From Chloroflexus aurantiacus J-10-fl (GTDB taxonomy: Bacteria; Chloroflexota; Chloroflexia; Chloroflexales; Chloroflexaceae), in assembly GCF_000018865.1 (NCBI RefSeq), contig NC_010175.1, positions 868,001 to 932,000 on the forward strand: DNA of 64,000 nt, given 5' to 3'. A model generated the notes under the pieces. The model ran no database searches. It was given only the letters and a program-made list of their open reading frames with translations, and had not been told where the DNA came from. The position numbers and the translations under genes were made by a program. Of this stretch, positions 43,614 through 51,658 are shown in pieces (positions within the stretch are counted from its first letter, which is position 1; the number at the start of each line of letters is the position of its first letter).

Positions 43614-45128
43614 ATGAATAGGGTCCAACGAAGCGTTACGGCAGTAAAGCAATTGTTAGAGAGTGGTGAACTCGATCAATTGCAAATCAAGGCCAGCGAC
43701 TTCATTTCGCAGCGTTCAGGCAACGAAAGCGGAGCAACCCGGATCGAGCAGATGAGTGTTCTGCTCGATGAGGCGGCTGAGTTGCTGAACCGTAATCTGC
43801 AACAGCGCGATTCAGGCGGGCAGGTCGCCAACGTTATTTCACCGGTAGTGATCCCCCGTGATCCGCGTTCGGTGCTCTGGATCGCAGTCACCGCTATCCT
43901 GGTAGTGATCGGCCTAATCGGTTGGCTCTTCAGTCTGCTGATCGATACCGTCTCCTTGGGCTTCACCAACCTGAGCCTTGTTTTGTTCGGGCCGCACTAC
44001 TGGCTGTTGGTCATCGGCTATGTAGCCTACAGTCTCTGGCGTAACACCTTCATTATGGTGCCCGACGGCTGCCAGGCACTGATCACCCGCTTTGGCAGGC
44101 TGGAGGAGATCGCACCGGCAGGACGCAAAGTGTTGCTCGATCCGTGGAAGCGCGTGAGTTACATCGTCAATGTGACGCGCGAATATCCGTACAACGCGCC
44201 GATCCGGGAAGCACCAACCGCTTCGCGGGTTAATGCCTCGGTCGATCTCTTCTTGCAATTCAAGATCGAAGACCCGGCAGCGTTCATCTTTACCCTGGGT
44301 GGCGCAAAAGGCTTTCAAGAGAAGCTCCAGAATGCGGTTAGCGAAGTGACGCGCGCTCTGATCTATGAGCAGCGCGCTGAAGCCATCTACGATCTGGTAG
44401 GCGAGAGTACGCAGAGTCTGCTTGACACGCTGAACCAGCAATTTCTGCCAGCGGTACGCTTTGTCAACGCCAACATCACCCACGCCGAGCCGTCGAGTCA
44501 GGAGTACCGGATCGATCTCGCCAAACCGGAGATGATCCGGGTCGCGAAAGAGGCGTACACCTACGAATACGAACTGGCTCTGCGTAAGGAGCAAGATGAA
44601 GGTGATCTGAACCGGGAACTGGCCGGCCTGCGCGAGCAGTTGTCGGCTATTCAAGCCGAAATTGCCACCTACCAGGCCCAGATCGATATTGCCCGCGAGA
44701 AAGAGACGTACCGCGCTAATGCGTATGCCAGCCAGTTGCTGAGCGAAGCCGAGAGTACTGCCCGGGCCAACGCTGCCCTGCTGGAAGCGCAGGCGCTCGA
44801 TATTCGGGCAGTCGGTGCCGCACGTTATCCCGAAATTCTGCAATACCGGTACCAGCAAGATATTCTCGACCGCCTGGAAGCAGTGGCCGATCATCTGCCG
44901 CAGATCGTGCAGGTCGGTGGTGGTGAAGAGGCAGCTATCGACTATCTGGCCCTGGCGCAACGGATGCTGGGCATCACCGATACCCAGCTCTATTCGCCCG
45001 AAGATGTCGCTGCCATCCGTAGCCGTATGCAAGAGATTCGCCAGCGCATCCTGGCCCGATCTGAACAGATCGCCCAAGTCGTCACCACTGAGACCGAACA
45101 GCGCAGCGAGAAAGGAGAACCGCGGTGA
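43614..45128 (+). CDS. SPFH/band-7 membrane protein (first of pair)
   Basis: A 504-aa protein. A helical N-terminus (1-75) is followed by VVIPRDPR and two membrane segments (about 88-140), an SPFH/prohibitin domain (about 142-320; FIMVPDGCQALITRFGRLEEI), a coiled-coil rich in Glu/Ala/Gln (about 325-410) and a C-terminal helical tail. SPFH proteins form ring-like membrane scaffolds that organise lipid domains or regulate membrane proteases. GGAG, 6 nt before ATG 43614, supports the start. Its stop codon overlaps the GTG start of a shorter paralogue, so the two are made together and may form a hetero-oligomer. Confidence 0.85.
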   Translation: MNRVQRSVTAVKQLLESGELDQLQIKASDFISQRSGNESGATRIEQMSVLLDEAAELLNRNLQQRDSGGQVANVISPVVIPRDPRSVLWIAVTAILVVIGLIGWLFSLLIDTVSLGFTNLSLVLFGPHYWLLVIGYVAYSLWRNTFIMVPDGCQALITRFGRLEEIAPAGRKVLLDPWKRVSYIVNVTREYPYNAPIREAPTASRVNASVDLFLQFKIEDPAAFIFTLGGAKGFQEKLQNAVSEVTRALIYEQRAEAIYDLVGESTQSLLDTLNQQFLPAVRFVNANITHAEPSSQEYRIDLAKPEMIRVAKEAYTYEYELALRKEQDEGDLNRELAGLREQLSAIQAEIATYQAQIDIAREKETYRANAYASQLLSEAESTARANAALLEAQALDIRAVGAARYPEILQYRYQQDILDRLEAVADHLPQIVQVGGGEEAAIDYLALAQRMLGITDTQLYSPEDVAAIRSRMQEIRQRILARSEQIAQVVTTETEQRSEKGEPR

Positions 45129-46360
45129 GTGAGCCACGACGTGAATTTTCGCGTATCCGCGAGGCAGTAGCGACCTGGAACCGCATCCGGCAACTCCTTC
45201 GCTCCGGTGAAGAGGGGCAACTGGTGCCGGTGGTGATTCCCAGAGATCGCCGACGGGCACGCTGGCTTTTGCCACTGGCCATCGGGTTGTATCTGATCGG
45301 TGTCGCCGTCTTCAGTGGGGGAGTCTTCGGCGGTCTGGCGCTCTTCCTGGCGCTGATCTTCTTTATCTGGGCCGGGTTGTCGTTTGTACTCGGTGCGATT
45401 ATCGAGATCGAACAGGGCACAACCGGTATTCTGTCGCGCTGGGGACAGATTGTCGGTACACTGTCACCGGGTCGTCATTACCTTTGGTGGCCGTGGGAGA
45501 AGGTCGAGGCCGTGGTTGACACCAGCACCGAGATTCCGTACACCGCACCGGTGATGGCGGCGCCAACCCGCGAAAATGTGCCGTTGAAGTCCATCGAATT
45601 CTTCTTGAAGTTCCGGATCGAAGACCCCGTCGCCTTTGTGCGCCGCCTGGGAGCCAGTAACTTCGATCTGGTGCTGAGCAGTGCGGTGCAGGACGCCATT
45701 CGGCAGCGGGCACGCCGGGTTGAAACCGAACGCGCCTACGATCTGCGTGGCAGCGATGTCGGTGATATGCAAGAGCTACTCAACCGCCAACTGGCCCGCT
45801 ACGGTGTCCGCATTACCGGTGCCAACATTCCTGATGTGCAATTGCCCGATCAGTATCAGCAGCACCTGGCGACCCGCGAGCGTGTCGCGAAAGAGTTGCA
45901 AGCCTACGCACGTGAATGGGAACTGATCAAAAAGCAACGGATCGACGGTCTGCTACTTGAGATTGAGCGTGCCAGGAAGGTGCGCGACGCCAAACTGGTC
46001 GAGGTACGGGCAGCGATCAATAAAGCCCGTGAAGACGTGGCGCGTATGCTGCAAGAGAAAGAGGCCGAAGCGCAGCGCGTGCGTTGGGAGATCGAAGCGC
46101 GTGGCCGGGCAACTCTACGCCAGGCCGAAAATGAGGCGCGCGGTCTGGAGTATCTTGGTCAGGCGTACCAGGACAATCGGGCTGTGCTGCAATATGAATT
46201 GGCCCGGCGCCGGCTTCAGGTGGCCGAAACACTGATGAAACGCGCCCCACGCCCGATTGTCATCCAGAGCGACGGCGGCGATGCTTCGGCATTAACTACG
46301 CTGCTAACGGCGCAGTTGTTGCCGAAATTGACCGGTAATGGGGATGGGATGGGGAAGTAG
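45125..46360 (+). CDS. SPFH/band-7 membrane protein (second of pair)
   Basis: A 411-aa paralogue of the preceding gene, starting with GTG in a GTGA overlap. It repeats the VVIPRDRR box (about 37-44), two membrane segments (about 48-95), an SPFH domain (about 97-270; EIEQGTTGILSRWGQIVG) and a long coiled coil (about 260-370; LLEIERARKVRDAKLVEV). The C-terminus is short. Shared order of motifs suggests gene duplication within the operon. The shared PRD-R box next to the membrane is a distinctive family trait. Confidence 0.85.
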   Translation: MSEPRREFSRIREAVATWNRIRQLLRSGEEGQLVPVVIPRDRRRARWLLPLAIGLYLIGVAVFSGGVFGGLALFLALIFFIWAGLSFVLGAIIEIEQGTTGILSRWGQIVGTLSPGRHYLWWPWEKVEAVVDTSTEIPYTAPVMAAPTRENVPLKSIEFFLKFRIEDPVAFVRRLGASNFDLVLSSAVQDAIRQRARRVETERAYDLRGSDVGDMQELLNRQLARYGVRITGANIPDVQLPDQYQQHLATRERVAKELQAYAREWELIKKQRIDGLLLEIERARKVRDAKLVEVRAAINKAREDVARMLQEKEAEAQRVRWEIEARGRATLRQAENEARGLEYLGQAYQDNRAVLQYELARRRLQVAETLMKRAPRPIVIQSDGGDASALTTLLTAQLLPKLTGNGDGMGK

Positions 46361-46872
46361 GAGGTAGAAAATAGGAAATAGGGAATGTTAGGGAGGGGAA
46401 GGGAGGTTAATCCCTTTCTCTCTATGTTTTTAGGGGTGGACAGAACACGTGATTGCAGGCGAGGGGTGTCAAATCCGGGTTGCTGAAGTTATTGCTCGTG
46501 ATCACACCCTCACGCCAGCAGTGACCTGATCACGGACACGGAGAACGGCGCTTCCGCTGCGCACGCAGTGGGATCAAACGCCGTAGCTACGGTTTCCCGA
46601 CCGGATTGCCTGTGTCGCGTCGTTTACAGTGCAGCAGCCACGCTATCGCATCAGCCAGGCTCGTGATCAGGGGCAGATGCAGCGGTTTCCCTGATCCACA
46701 TACTCACGTTCCCGGAGGAGCCGTTTTGAGATATTCCCATCGCTGATCACCCTATCAAATTGGGCAGGTAGGGGCGGGTTCAGCCCCCACAGACGGTGCA
46801 TGTACCTGTTCACATTGCCATGCGATGAGGTTCAAACATTGTATTTTTCAGATTCCACCCCTTCCAACACTG
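46361..46872. other. intergenic region (512 bp)
   Basis: No gene is supported. It begins with an AGGAGGTAGAAAATAGG/AAATAGGGAA near-repeat right after the SPFH gene. At 46766-46789 it contains a truncated member of the GTAGGGGCGGGTT palindrome family. It ends in the promoter of the HTH/ImmA gene. Confidence 0.4.
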
Positions 46873-46909
46873 GTTGACAAAGTGTCAGCGAACAGCGATA
46901 ATTGTCAAC
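46873..46909 (+). promoter_or_regulatory. strong promoter with overlapping palindrome (operator)
   Basis: TTGACA (46874-46879), an exact 17-nt spacer and GATAAT (46897-46902). GTTGACA (46873-46879) and TGTCAAC (46903-46909) form a 7-bp inverted repeat that covers both boxes, and GTGTCAG / CTGTCAG adds a direct repeat. This is a typical site for autorepression by the HTH protein encoded immediately downstream. Confidence 0.7.
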
Positions 46910-46928
46910 TGTCAGGAAGGAGTTGGCC

Positions 46929-48197
46929 ATGATTAGTCAACGATTGCGCCAGTTGCGGTTGGCGCGCGGCATGACCCTCAGCGATCTGGCTCAGGCAACC
47001 AACCACATTGTTACCCGTCAGGCTATTTCCAAGTATGAACATGGGCACGCTCAACCATCACCGACGGTGCTTCAGCGCTTAGCGCAGGCACTCGGTGTCC
47101 GACCGACCGATCTCCTCGACGGTGCCAATATCCGGGTAGATGTCGTTGCCTATCGTAAACGGGCTTCGCTCGGCAAACGACAGAGTGAGCATCTCGCCGC
47201 GTTGGCCGAAGAGGCATTGCGCGAACGGGTGCGATTACAACGGCTTATTGGCGACACCAGGGTACTCGATGTCCCGTTGCAGGAGTATCCGGTGAAGAAT
47301 CTGGACGACGTTGAGTCTGCGGCTACCGCTCTCCGTAACCGTTGGGATCTGGGTAGTGCACCGATTGCCAATTTGACCGACGTGTTAGAAGATCACGGCT
47401 TGCACGTTATCGAACTCGCAACCATTGACGGCTTCGATGGCGTTGCTGTAATTGCCCGTGATGAACACGGTCATCCGCTGGCCGCAGCGGTGATTGCGCA
47501 GCGGAGCGATGATGGTGCGCGATGGCGGATGAATCTCGCCCACGAGCTGGCGCATCTGGTGCTGCAACCGCAAGACAATCTCGATGAAGAGAAGGCTGCG
47601 TTTCGCTTTGCAGCGGCATTTCTCGCGCCAGCCCATGATCTGCGCGCCTTTATCGGTGAGCGCCGTCATCATCTACATCTGGATGAATTGCTCTTGATGA
47701 AGCACCACTTCGGTATGAGCATCCAGGCGCTGCTTTACCGCATGCAGACGCTGGACATTATCAGTCCATCTCTCTTCCGCAAGTGGATGATCGAATTCGG
47801 TGAACGGGGCTGGCGAATGGCAGAACCGGAACCACTGCCACACGAAGAACCGCTCTGGTTGCGGCGGGCCACCCTTCACGCCCTGGCGGAAGAGCTGATC
47901 GATCCCGCAGAAGCGCAGCGTTTGCTGGGTGATGAGGTGGCAACCGGTGTGGCGCAGGCCGTTTTCGCCGAAACTGTCATCCCTGAGACTATTCCTGAAA
48001 CCATCCAGGCCGAGGATGTGCCGGAAAGTCATTACCCACCGCCACCTCCAGCTCACACTGTTCCCTGCCGGCAATTGCTCCGGCTACCGCAGGCTGAACG
48101 CCATGCGATCCTGGCTGCGCAGGCGGCCAATGCACTCGATCTCTATCAGTCTGTCGCCGATTCTGTAAACGAGGTCGCAACGAGTGAGCACAAGTAA
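46929..48197 (+). CDS. HTH-XRE / ImmA-IrrE metallopeptidase, probable antitoxin
   Basis: A 422-aa protein in three parts. An XRE helix-turn-helix (1-65; LRLARGMTLSDLAQ...ISKYEHG) comes first. An ImmA/IrrE zinc-metallopeptidase domain (about 110-280) has His205-Glu206-x-x-His209 (NLAHELAHLVL). A proline-rich linker (about 365-378) then leads to a helical tail at about 381-412 (LLRLPQAERHAILAAQA). That tail resembles the toxin-facing C-terminus of small MazE-like antitoxins (LPxxERxxIL..QA). AGGAAGGAG is 6 nt before ATG 46929. It overlaps a MazF/PemK-like gene by 14 nt. The reading is a self-repressing antitoxin or stress-sensing protease; which role dominates is inference. Confidence 0.85.
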   Translation: MISQRLRQLRLARGMTLSDLAQATNHIVTRQAISKYEHGHAQPSPTVLQRLAQALGVRPTDLLDGANIRVDVVAYRKRASLGKRQSEHLAALAEEALRERVRLQRLIGDTRVLDVPLQEYPVKNLDDVESAATALRNRWDLGSAPIANLTDVLEDHGLHVIELATIDGFDGVAVIARDEHGHPLAAAVIAQRSDDGARWRMNLAHELAHLVLQPQDNLDEEKAAFRFAAAFLAPAHDLRAFIGERRHHLHLDELLLMKHHFGMSIQALLYRMQTLDIISPSLFRKWMIEFGERGWRMAEPEPLPHEEPLWLRRATLHALAEELIDPAEAQRLLGDEVATGVAQAVFAETVIPETIPETIQAEDVPESHYPPPPPAHTVPCRQLLRLPQAERHAILAAQAANALDLYQSVADSVNEVATSEHK

Positions 48198-48534
48198 ATC
48201 GCCCCGGCGTGGTGAGATCTGGCAGGCCGATCTCGGTGATCAAACATCAGGGTTAGTGTTGATAGTGAGTACTGACGCTTTTGAACATCTGCCGATCCGT
48301 CTGGTCGCCCGCTTGCGCCCATGGGAAGACCGGTTTGCCGGTATGGTGTGGTTGCAGCGTCTGGAGGGAACCTGGCCGACCCGCTTAGGTAAGCCACACG
48401 CCGTTGATCTGTTACAGTTGCACTCGATTGAGGTGCATCGCTTGCGCACGATGGTCGGACGAGCACCGGCCATCAGAATGGATGAGATTGCTGCGGCAAT
48501 TGCGCTGGTAGTAGATTATAATCCTGCCGGGTAA
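48184..48534 (+). CDS. MazF/PemK-like toxin
   Basis: A 116-aa protein with the MazF/PemK opening RRGEIWQADLGD and following strand GLVLIVSTDAF. The usual QVRTI..RL segment appears as LQLHSIEVHRLRTMVGR, so at least one residue that matters for RNA cleavage in known MazF proteins may be changed. MazF enzymes cut mRNA at short motifs. The start is GTG 48184, inside the end of the HTH/ImmA gene, with GAGG 9 nt upstream. Gene order (regulator first, toxin overlapping) is that of a toxin-antitoxin unit. The protein may be active, altered in specificity or decayed. Confidence 0.7.
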   Translation: MSTSKSPRRGEIWQADLGDQTSGLVLIVSTDAFEHLPIRLVARLRPWEDRFAGMVWLQRLEGTWPTRLGKPHAVDLLQLHSIEVHRLRTMVGRAPAIRMDEIAAAIALVVDYNPAG

Positions 48535-48566
48535 GTCAACGACCGCAACCCAACCAACGTATACGC

Positions 48567-50876
48567 ATGAACTATAGCGCACAACCAGATATGACCACCA
48601 CGTCCACAGGTTTCACCATCAATGCCGGTGCACTGCTGGCAAGCGCACCGGCAACCGCAACCGCAACCGCCCTTAATGAAGCTCTGGCCGCATACGGTCT
48701 CTGTCTGCCGGTTGCCCCGTTACACACCGACGCAACGCTCGCCGAACTGGTAGCCTGTAACAGTGGTGGTCGGTATCGGTTGTACAGCGGGCCAATCGGT
48801 CGCTATGTGCGGGCAGCAACCCTGGAAACCGCCAGTGGTCTGTTGCACGTCGGCGGCCCAACCCTCAAGCGGGCAACTGGCTACAACCTGCACCGCGCAC
48901 TGGCCGGGCAGGGCGTGCGCCTCGGTGATCTGCGTGAATTGACGTTCAATTTGCGCCCTTTGCCGGCAATGACCACCCTGTACCTGGTAGCGGGGCCGCT
49001 TGACCGGTTGTTGATGCTGGCAGCCGATCTAATGACCGCCAATCTGGAGCTGCGGGCATTAGCGTTCGATGCCGGTGGATTGCTCCTCATCGCCCTGGCC
49101 GGCCTGCCAGAAGTGGTGACTCGCCAGTCGCAGCAGGTACTGGCAATGGCAGATCTCCATCAGCTCGCCGTTACCCGTGACCCCGCCAACGGCTGGCGGC
49201 ATTGGGAAGAGCTTGCGCGCCGGCATTGTGCTCTGCCCGCCGACCAACGCCTCGATATGACACTACCGCGCAGCAAACTGGCCGAGGGGATCGCCGCCTG
49301 TCGGCAGATCGGTGATGCCGCTACCACCATCTGGGGCGATCTGGGTGTAGGGAGCATCCACGTCACGCCATTACCTGACGCCCGGCGCTATGCAACGTTG
49401 AAAGCGCAGCTAGCCACACTCGGCGCTCAACCGTGTTACGAGTTTGGCCCACCGCCACAACCGCCCTATCCAACCCTGACCCCTCGCAAGCACCAGACGC
49501 CTGGCGATTGTATCGCTGCCCTCAAACAGGTGGTTGGTGACCGTTACCTGATCCACCATCCCGACCAACTGGCGGTCTACGGGCAGGACGCCTCGATTGC
49601 CGAGGCCGAAGCATTGCCGTATGCGGTCGCCTTACCGGCCAGCACGGCTGAAGTCGCCGCCCTGATGCAGATTGCGGCTGCACATGATCTGCCGGTAGTT
49701 ACCCGTGGGGCCGGCAGTGGCCTGGCAGGCGGCGCCGTACCAACACCGGGGTGCCTGGTGATTGGCCTGAACCGCATGGAACAGATAACTATTGATCGCG
49801 GGCAACAGGTTGCCCACGTGGGCGCCGGTGTCATCACTGCCGAACTACAACGGGCCGCCGAGCGCGTTGGCCTCTTCTACCCCCCCGATCCGAGCAGTCA
49901 GGCGGCCTCGACCATCGGCGGCAATATCGCCTGCAACGCCGGTGGGCCGCGGTGTCTGAAATATGGAGTAACTGCCGATTACGTATTGGGATTAACGACG
50001 GTACTGGCCGACGGCTCCATCGCCCGCTACGGCGATGGCCTGGCCGGTCAGGGTGAGAGCGATGGATTAGTGCAACTCCTTGTCGGCTCCGAAGGAACCC
50101 TGGCCGTGATTACCGAGGCAACCCTGCGGCTGATCCCACTGCCCCGCGCCCGCCGCACGACCATGGCGATCTTCGCCGATCTGGCCGCAGCCTGTGCCAC
50201 AGTCGAACGGATCATGGCATCGGGGATTATTCCAGCCAGTCTGGAGCTGATGGATGACACCACTATCGCCGCCGTGGAAGCGTATCTGCGCATCGGCCTG
50301 CCGGCTGATGCCGGAGCGATGTTATTAATGCTGGCCGATGGTGAACCGGAAGCGGTTGAACGCGACGCAGCAGCCCTGGCCGAACTGGCAAAGGCCGGCG
50401 GCGCACAACGGGTAGCAGTGGCGCGCAACGCCACCGACGAAGCAAACCTCTGGCAGGCACGACGAGTGATCGCACCGGCCCTGGCTCGCATTCGCCCTAA
50501 CCGATTGGGTGAAGACATCAGCGTACCGGTGACCCGCATCGCCGAATGTGTCGGCCAGATCAAGCAGGTAAGCGCCACCTACGGCCTGCCTATCGTAGTC
50601 TTTGGTCATGCCGGCGACGGCAACCTGCATCCAAACATCCTCTTCGATGCCCGCAATCCGACCGAAGTGGCGCGATTATGGCCGTGCGCAGAAGCCGTCT
50701 TCAAAGTGGCGCTGGCCGTGGGTGGTACGCTGTCGGGAGAGCACGGTATCGGCACCCTCAAACGACCATTCATGACCCAGGCGCTCGGTGAGGCCCAGCT
50801 TGCTGTGCAACGTCAGATCAAAGCCCATTTCGACCCCACCGGTCGGCTGAATCCTGGCAAAGTACTCCCGGTATGA
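48567..50876 (+). CDS. GlcE-GlcD fusion, FAD-linked glycolate/D-2-hydroxyacid dehydrogenase
   Basis: A 769-aa flavoprotein. Residues about 310-769 are a full GlcD subunit with the FAD pyrophosphate loop VTRGAGSGLAGGAVPTPG (about 377-394), PPDPSSQAASTIGGNIACNAGG, and the C-terminal GHAGDGNLHPNILF and GEHGIGTLKRP motifs. Residues 1-300 resemble GlcE (GPIGRYVRAATLETASG, GPTLKRATGYNLHRAL) but lack the FAD-binding loop, so only one FAD is expected. The enzyme would oxidise glycolate or a related D-2-hydroxyacid. The iron-sulfur GlcF subunit is not next to it. No clear ribosome site; ATG 48591 is an alternative start. It overlaps the methyltransferase gene that follows. Confidence 0.8.
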   Translation: MNYSAQPDMTTTSTGFTINAGALLASAPATATATALNEALAAYGLCLPVAPLHTDATLAELVACNSGGRYRLYSGPIGRYVRAATLETASGLLHVGGPTLKRATGYNLHRALAGQGVRLGDLRELTFNLRPLPAMTTLYLVAGPLDRLLMLAADLMTANLELRALAFDAGGLLLIALAGLPEVVTRQSQQVLAMADLHQLAVTRDPANGWRHWEELARRHCALPADQRLDMTLPRSKLAEGIAACRQIGDAATTIWGDLGVGSIHVTPLPDARRYATLKAQLATLGAQPCYEFGPPPQPPYPTLTPRKHQTPGDCIAALKQVVGDRYLIHHPDQLAVYGQDASIAEAEALPYAVALPASTAEVAALMQIAAAHDLPVVTRGAGSGLAGGAVPTPGCLVIGLNRMEQITIDRGQQVAHVGAGVITAELQRAAERVGLFYPPDPSSQAASTIGGNIACNAGGPRCLKYGVTADYVLGLTTVLADGSIARYGDGLAGQGESDGLVQLLVGSEGTLAVITEATLRLIPLPRARRTTMAIFADLAAACATVERIMASGIIPASLELMDDTTIAAVEAYLRIGLPADAGAMLLMLADGEPEAVERDAAALAELAKAGGAQRVAVARNATDEANLWQARRVIAPALARIRPNRLGEDISVPVTRIAECVGQIKQVSATYGLPIVVFGHAGDGNLHPNILFDARNPTEVARLWPCAEAVFKVALAVGGTLSGEHGIGTLKRPFMTQALGEAQLAVQRQIKAHFDPTGRLNPGKVLPV

Positions 50877-51658
50877 TGATCACCAGCCTCGCCAATCCAA
50901 CCATCAAAGCCCTGCGTGCGCTCAGGCAACGCAAAGCTCGCGACGAGCAGGGGCGCTACCTGATTGAAGGGATTCGCCCGGTCGCCGAAGCGATTCAATG
51001 CGGTGCACCGCTCGACATGCTGGTCGTTGCCCCTGAACTGCTCAACAGCAGCTTTGCGCACGAACTGATCGACACCTATGCTGCTGGCGGCGGCAAAATA
51101 CTGACCGTCAGTGCAGCAGTCTTCAGCAGCCTGGCCGACAAAGACAACCCGCAGGGCCTGGCAGCCGTCGGGCGCATACACTACACCCCCCTCCCCAACC
51201 TGTCGCCGGCGCCGGTTGGCTGGGTGGTACTGGTTGAAGTAGCCGATCCGGGCAACCTGGGCACAATCTTACGCACTGCCGATGGTGCCGGCTTCAGCGG
51301 CGTCATCCTGGTCGGCGCAACGACCGACCCCTTCGACCCGGCAGCGGTGCGGGCCAGCATGGGCGCCCTCTTCAGCCAACAGATTGCACGCACGAGCTGG
51401 CCCGATCTGCTGACCTGGGCACGACAGCACCGTATCGCCCTGGTCGGCAGCTCTGATCGCGGAGCCAGTGACTACCGGGCCACAACCTACCCGCGACCAC
51501 TGCTCCTGGTGCTGGGCAGCGAACGGCACGGCCTGACGGACGAACAGCTTGCCGCCTGTGATCTGGTTGTCCGTATTCCAATGCGGGGGCGTAGCGACTC
51601 GCTCAATCTGGCAGTGGCAGCCGGCATCCTGATGTACGAAGCGACCCGCTCACAATAA
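50873..51658 (+). CDS. SpoU/TrmH-family RNA 2'-O-methyltransferase
   Basis: A 261-aa SPOUT methyltransferase that transfers methyl from AdoMet to a ribose 2'-OH in rRNA or tRNA. An N-terminal substrate-binding domain (about 1-100; RDEQGRYLIEGIRPVAEAI) precedes the SpoU domain with motif 1 NLGTILRTADGAGF, motif 2 LLVLGSERHGL and motif 3 IPMRGRSDSLNLAVAAGIL, which form the trefoil-knot AdoMet site. The start codon overlaps the stop of the glycolate-dehydrogenase gene. The exact target nucleotide is not predictable here. Confidence 0.88.
   Translation: MMITSLANPTIKALRALRQRKARDEQGRYLIEGIRPVAEAIQCGAPLDMLVVAPELLNSSFAHELIDTYAAGGGKILTVSAAVFSSLADKDNPQGLAAVGRIHYTPLPNLSPAPVGWVVLVEVADPGNLGTILRTADGAGFSGVILVGATTDPFDPAAVRASMGALFSQQIARTSWPDLLTWARQHRIALVGSSDRGASDYRATTYPRPLLLVLGSERHGLTDEQLAACDLVVRIPMRGRSDSLNLAVAAGILMYEATRSQ

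Follow-up and report, generated by a model that had tools for sequence, protein, structure and literature searches.

The window analysed here, a 64,000-nucleotide stretch of the Chloroflexus aurantiacus J-10-fl genome (contig NC_010175.1, positions 868,001 to 932,000 of the forward strand; the genome is 5.26 Mb in a single contig), carries two overlapping genes arranged like a toxin-antitoxin (TA) pair. All features described below lie on the + strand. The first gene (46929..48197, ATG start) encodes a repressor or antitoxin of 422 residues in which an XRE helix-turn-helix (HTH), an ImmA/IrrE zinc protease and a C-terminal tail are joined in a single chain, as assigned with Pfam, the RmrA models of PADLOC and an AlphaFold2 model. 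The second (48184..48534, GTG start) encodes a 116-residue protein of the MazF/PemK fold, recognised through the Pfam family PemK_toxin, an AlphaFold2 model and matches to solved structures. The two open reading frames overlap by 14 nt, the toxin gene beginning inside the regulator gene. An initial annotation of the same DNA had described a three-part antitoxin overlapping a MazF-like toxin behind a palindrome-covered promoter, and its observations (reading frames, domains, promoter, palindrome and tail motif) were confirmed as a whole. Its interpretation stands as regards the three modules and the predicted autoregulation, but no match to an AbrB-type MazE was obtained and the catalytic residues of the toxin are absent. 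It had remarked neither on this absence nor on the breadth of the family.

The XRE domain occupies residues 1-66 (46929..47126; HTH_3 over residues 6-62, 1.2e-16), and its closest domain in the PDB is the HTH of DdrO. It is followed by an M78 protease core at residues 194-272 (47508..47744; Peptidase_M78, 1.6e-9), and the best fold match for this region in the PDB is CapP (7t5t). The HExxH zinc motif (H205-E206-L-A-H209, 47541..47555) is invariant in 24/24 aligned relatives, as is the downstream glutamate E221, in keeping with the M78 pattern of HExxH plus a later Glu. Both the HTH and the protease regions are under strong constraint within the genus, with ratios of nonsynonymous to synonymous differences (pN/pS) of 0.17-0.18. 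Fourteen RmrA models of PADLOC match the protein, the best at 1.4e-47 over residues 3-334, and the AlphaFold2 model is ordered up to residue 338. RmrA belongs to RosmerTA, in which an ImmA-domain antitoxin occurs with varied toxins (PMC10440598). An AbrB/MazE DNA-binding domain was sought in the antitoxin and not found, Pfam giving HTH_3 instead.

Beyond this ordered body lie a disordered linker (residues 339-376, 47943..48056), modelled with a predicted local distance difference test score (pLDDT) below 50 and evolving almost neutrally within the genus (pN/pS 0.90), and a predicted toxin-binding tail (residues 377-412, 48057..48164). The tail forms a helix from about residue 380 (pLDDT ~80), carries the motif LPxxERxxIL..QA over about residues 381-407, and is constrained within the genus (pN/pS 0.47). 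Since its last ten residues overlap the ribosome-binding site and start codon of the toxin gene, their conservation is partly expected and was not relied on. Elsewhere in the phylum, homologues of the MazF-fold protein are preceded by small antitoxins whose C-termini resemble the window tail and whose N-termini are ribbon-helix-helix, Phd-like or other. Against a profile of just two of these (L009 and L010, both without an XRE domain and with unrelated N-termini), the window tail scored 22.4 bits (E 8e-6 at Z = 1000), whereas none of 2400 shuffles exceeded 9.1. Judged by sequence, the tail is a genuine module and exceeds what chance would give. The description as MazE-like needs correcting: the tail does not match the AbrB-type MazE family of Pfam, and the tail of a relative gave no Pfam family, but it does match the tails of small antitoxins beside the same MazF clade. 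Comparison of the tail with solved structures yielded short helical coincidences only and no convincing antitoxin match. Among individual loci, the small antitoxin upstream of MazF at L024 (genome G237) has an XRE-like helix start followed directly by the tail, as if it were an XRE-ImmA protein from which ImmA had been deleted, and the antitoxin linker at L032/L006 (G052) contains a tandem peptide repeat, QFPDVTATDTLAQAV, in about four copies.

Relatives of the antitoxin were collected from a scan of GTDB species genomes, which kept 80 loci, and a scan of viral contigs, which added 7; 85 were analysed. The gene behind the antitoxin, classified by profile, is of the PIN type at 62/85 loci, MazF at 22/85 and neither at 1/85. 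The two-sequence tail profile (E <0.05) recognised 20 of the 22 MazF-partnered antitoxins, among them L072, whose tail has been displaced by a frameshift, and not one of the 62 with a PIN partner; a first profile made from eight sequences had recognised 14/22 and 0/62, respectively (p = 1e-10). The two misses are the viral locus L145, which has no recognisable tail, and the Chloroflexus islandicus locus (L061, in genome G198), whose tail scores low although its homology to the window tail is plain. The association of the tail with a MazF partner, as seen in the initial annotation, is supported. In a maximum-likelihood tree of the body, the cellular MazF-partnered proteins form one clade of 26, separate from the PIN type and spanning about 12 phyla, although many members are metagenome bins, so that individual phylum assignments could be in error. 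The tree of the toxins intermingles MazFs that have an XRE-ImmA partner with those that have small antitoxins, and the partner label changes 6 times, at least 2 of these changes being forced by well-supported branches.

The tail could, on another view, be a dimerisation or degradation element and not a neutraliser, with a protease domain directed solely at other proteins or serving regulation. The shortness of the tail and the want of a convincing match to a solved antitoxin would suit this view, which is nevertheless improbable, as the tail follows the MazF partner, is common to small antitoxins without XRE-ImmA and is missing from the PIN-partnered proteins. Two of the sampled loci deserve separate mention. 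L145, the one locus with MazF among the 7 from viral contigs, combines XRE-ImmA and MazF and falls inside the PIN side of the body tree. At L072, in Geotalea toluenoxydans, the antitoxin frame breaks near residue 311, which indicates either a pseudogene or an assembly error.

The pair is preceded by a sigma-70-type promoter, TTGACA-17-GATAAT (46874..46902), which matches the consensus at 11/12, has the consensus spacer of 17 nt that had been noted earlier, and is the sole strong promoter match in 46300-51000. Across it lies the inverted repeat GTTGACAA-N21-TTGTCAAC (46873..46909), a 37-bp operator that takes in the -35 box and extends slightly past the -10 box. A probable ribosome-binding site of the antitoxin gene, AGGAAGGAG (46914..46922), was identified by sequence inspection. 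Written as GTTGACA-N23-TGTCAAC, the palindrome is exact in 8/8 genus genomes, with a spacer sequence that varies between species, and the reversed-pattern control gave 0 matches. It occurs once per genus genome, at the antitoxin locus, except for an extra exact site in G086 (L162, contig C16, at about position 1198); as no antitoxin gene adjoins it, this second site was set aside as a probable chance occurrence. A regulon search of the source genome allowing <=3 mismatches returned 22 forward and 20 reversed-control matches and supported no further target.

The same layout extends well beyond the genus. The pattern GTTKAC-N(23-25)-GTMAAC was searched in the upstream regions of the 85 relatives and was found exactly in 65/85 and with <=1 mismatch in 80/85, against 0/1700 exact matches and 0.4% with one mismatch in shuffled controls. 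Exact half-site pairs concentrate at spacings of 24 and 25, that is, GTT(G/T)AC-N24/25-GT(C/A)AAC. This family operator occurs in both the MazF and PIN types and therefore goes with the body, not with the toxin; it had no exact match at any of 19 MazF loci with small antitoxins. Moreover, the variable base of the half-site is G in 36/39 proteins with Lys or Arg at one position of the recognition helix and T in 34/35 proteins with another residue there. The exact conservation within the genus and the layout upstream of 80 relatives favour the autoregulation through the palindrome that had been proposed at the outset.

The product of the second gene scores 44.5 bits against PF02452 (PemK/MazF; cut-off 23.1, 2e-11), and solved MazF structures can be superposed on its AlphaFold2 model (pLDDT 89.4) with Z ~17. 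PADLOC gave no model match for this gene, RmrT included. A CcdB-like gyrase poison was also considered and rejected: the Pfam family CcdB was matched at only 0.076, a CcdB structure superposed at Z 14.1, below many MazFs, and the C-terminus, VVDYNPAG, has no Trp. CcdB needs its C-terminal residues. The ribonuclease (RNase) activity of MazF requires an Arg and a Thr, and in Bacillus cereus MazF single mutants of Arg25 or Thr48 are severely reduced in activity and the double mutant is nearly inactive (PMC7354611). In an alignment of 52 MazFs, the catalytic Arg is present in 43/43 relatives outside the genus and in 0/8 Chloroflexus species; the Thr is present in 41/43 and 0/8, the two exceptions outside the genus being distant and poorly aligned. 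The window protein has Gly23 at the Arg position (48250..48252), where the beta1-beta2 loop is shortened, and Arg45 at the Thr position (48316..48318), where members of the genus have R, Q or H. All 8 genus genomes keep an open reading frame, and the ratio of nonsynonymous to synonymous substitution rates (dN/dS) within the genus, 0.07-0.27, shows purifying selection.

The assignment as a MazF-like toxin thus stands for the fold and the Pfam family, but the missing Arg and Thr make the toxicity of the Chloroflexus protein doubtful. The simplest reading of these alignments is a protein that is conserved but apparently no longer an RNase of the MazF type. Since the catalytic residues are lost and the protein is kept by selection, it is most likely non-enzymatic, and it is probably a regulatory partner of the antitoxin, not a poison. 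A fully active TA pair, in which the protein would still be toxic through a reshaped active site or by hitting a different target and which would serve in abortive infection or stress as RosmerTA does, would sit well with the intact MazF fold, the normal active site in other phyla, the RmrA-like body and the purifying selection on the toxin, and the new Arg, Gln or His in place of the Thr might conceivably take over catalysis. However, both residues crucial in the B. cereus enzyme (PMC7354611) are gone genus-wide, the substrate loop is shortened, and the fixed synteny throughout the genus is unlike that of typical mobile defence loci, so that an active pair seems unlikely. The loss of the catalytic residues and the length of the stem branch leading to the genus toxins (1.22 changes per column) might also be read as the marks of a decaying remnant, with a dead toxin and a pair persisting by drift; this is hardly credible in view of the low dN/dS, the frames that remain open in every genome and an operator without a single change.

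Behind the toxin gene lies a gene for a glycolate-oxidase-like oxidase linked to flavin adenine dinucleotide (FAD) (48567..50876; FAD_binding_4 and FAD-oxidase_C). The gap between the two genes is 29-68 nt in genus members with an assignable start, alternative starts included, and neither a terminator-like site between them nor another strong promoter was found. Because of this short gap and the lack of both signals, co-transcription of the oxidase gene with the antitoxin-toxin pair is likely. In the genus members examined, the pair is flanked by an SPFH gene upstream and the FAD-linked glycolate-oxidase-like gene downstream, except that the SPFH gene is absent from the upstream stretches retrieved for G126 and G230.

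In the mechanism proposed here, the first protein would be an RmrA-like XRE-ImmA repressor, with its DNA-binding and zinc-protease domains in a body of residues 1-338 and a disordered tether (339-376) holding a short helix (377-412), which would bind the MazF-fold product of the overlapping gene. Its XRE domains would sit on the two half-sites of the operator, ~30 bp apart, and close the promoter. A stress signal could then activate the protease, which would cut the repressor or its neighbour, opening the promoter and freeing the MazF-fold partner. This trigger step is proposed because of the analogy with IrrE-DdrO, CapP-CapH and ImmA-ImmR, by which protease-triggered inactivation of the repressor might occur here too; PprI has been described as sensing single-stranded DNA (PMC10904395). 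In the wider family the partner has an intact RNase active site and presumably acts as a toxin; the Chloroflexus protein would most likely serve without enzymatic activity, as a co-repressor or tail ligand, in a switch that also controls the oxidase gene.

The best overall explanation, and a fairly probable one, is therefore an autoregulated two-gene locus of TA descent in which the Chloroflexus partner is non-enzymatic and the switch also controls the oxidase gene. The computations establish the domain architecture, the tail as a module, the conserved operator, the fold, the lost residues and the purifying selection, while binding of the toxin by the tail, autorepression, the protease trigger, the loss of toxicity and the role in the operon are inferred. 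A more specific history can be offered tentatively: a cross-phylum subfamily would have swapped PIN for MazF together with a matching tail, while keeping one operator of 36-37 bp with a half-site base read by a recognition-helix residue, and in Chloroflexus the toxin would then have turned into a pseudoenzyme, with the pair now forming a protease-gated switch for a glycolate-oxidase-like operon. Several points weigh against these interpretations. The recognition-helix and half-site counts are not phylogenetically independent, with few switches on the tree; the closeness of the oxidase gene is no proof of co-transcription or regulation; dS is near saturation for most genus pairs; and another active site may exist in the Chloroflexus MazF. 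Furthermore, some small antitoxins of the first tail profile may have arisen from XRE-ImmA proteins through deletions, and the two-sequence profile was built for that reason.

Antitoxins of the XRE-ImmA type have been described before, both as RosmerTA/RmrA (PMC10440598) and as fused COG2856-Xre proteins beside PIN and RelE toxins, reported in 2009 (Makarova, PMC2701414). RosmerTA (RmrA; NetFlax node D25) resembles the window pair in having an antitoxin of similar length with XRE and ImmA domains, paired with diverse toxins (PMC10440598), but the partner here is of the MazF fold, the 80 residues of linker and tail lie outside the RmrA models, and the active site is lost in the genus. The COG2856-Xre fusions likewise combine an HTH and a zinc protease in one protein encoded beside a toxin, and their PIN type corresponds to the sister group found here, but they have no tail and the association table of that paper gives PIN and RelE, not MazF (PMC2701414). 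MazEF/PemIK shares the toxin fold and a C-terminal antitoxin tail (for the MazE tail mechanism, see PMC5408214), whereas the window antitoxin is a 422-residue XRE-protease, not an AbrB-type MazE, and the toxins of the genus lack the catalytic Arg and Thr. Similarly, IrrE/PprI-DdrO, CapP-CapH and ImmA-ImmR pair an M78 protease with an XRE repressor, but as two proteins, whereas the window protein is one chain with a third module. The spr1629 family repressor/antitoxin (NCBIfam NF052239) has a similar architecture (2.7e-24), but the window antitoxin reaches 86 bits where the cut-off is 335 and is thus not a member.

In openly licensed papers, nothing was found on the MazF-partnered subfamily with the tail, on its operator or on the absence of the active site throughout the genus. 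XRE-ImmA antitoxins occur often in phage defence, and it is not clear by what means they neutralise toxins with unrelated folds; the present comparison suggests a simple rule by which a constant sensor-repressor body is combined with a tail that can be exchanged to suit the toxin. An operator that is nearly constant across many phyla and two toxin types would predict binding sites for the entire family. The Chloroflexus branch could also provide a natural series for asking why a TA pair is kept after its toxin loses the catalytic residues.

The wider neighbourhood shows some further features. Upstream of the locus are two consecutive SPFH/Band 7 genes (43614-45128 and 45125-46360) that overlap by 4 nt. 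The 500 bp between the second of these and the operator (46361-46860) consist of pieces of dispersed repeats, with 51 matches in the genome at ~68-92% identity; in several other genus members the same interval is only ~50 bp. Directly behind the toxin gene, the oxidase gene is followed by a gene for a SpoU-type ribosomal RNA methyltransferase, with which it overlaps by 4 nt (48567-51658 for the two genes).
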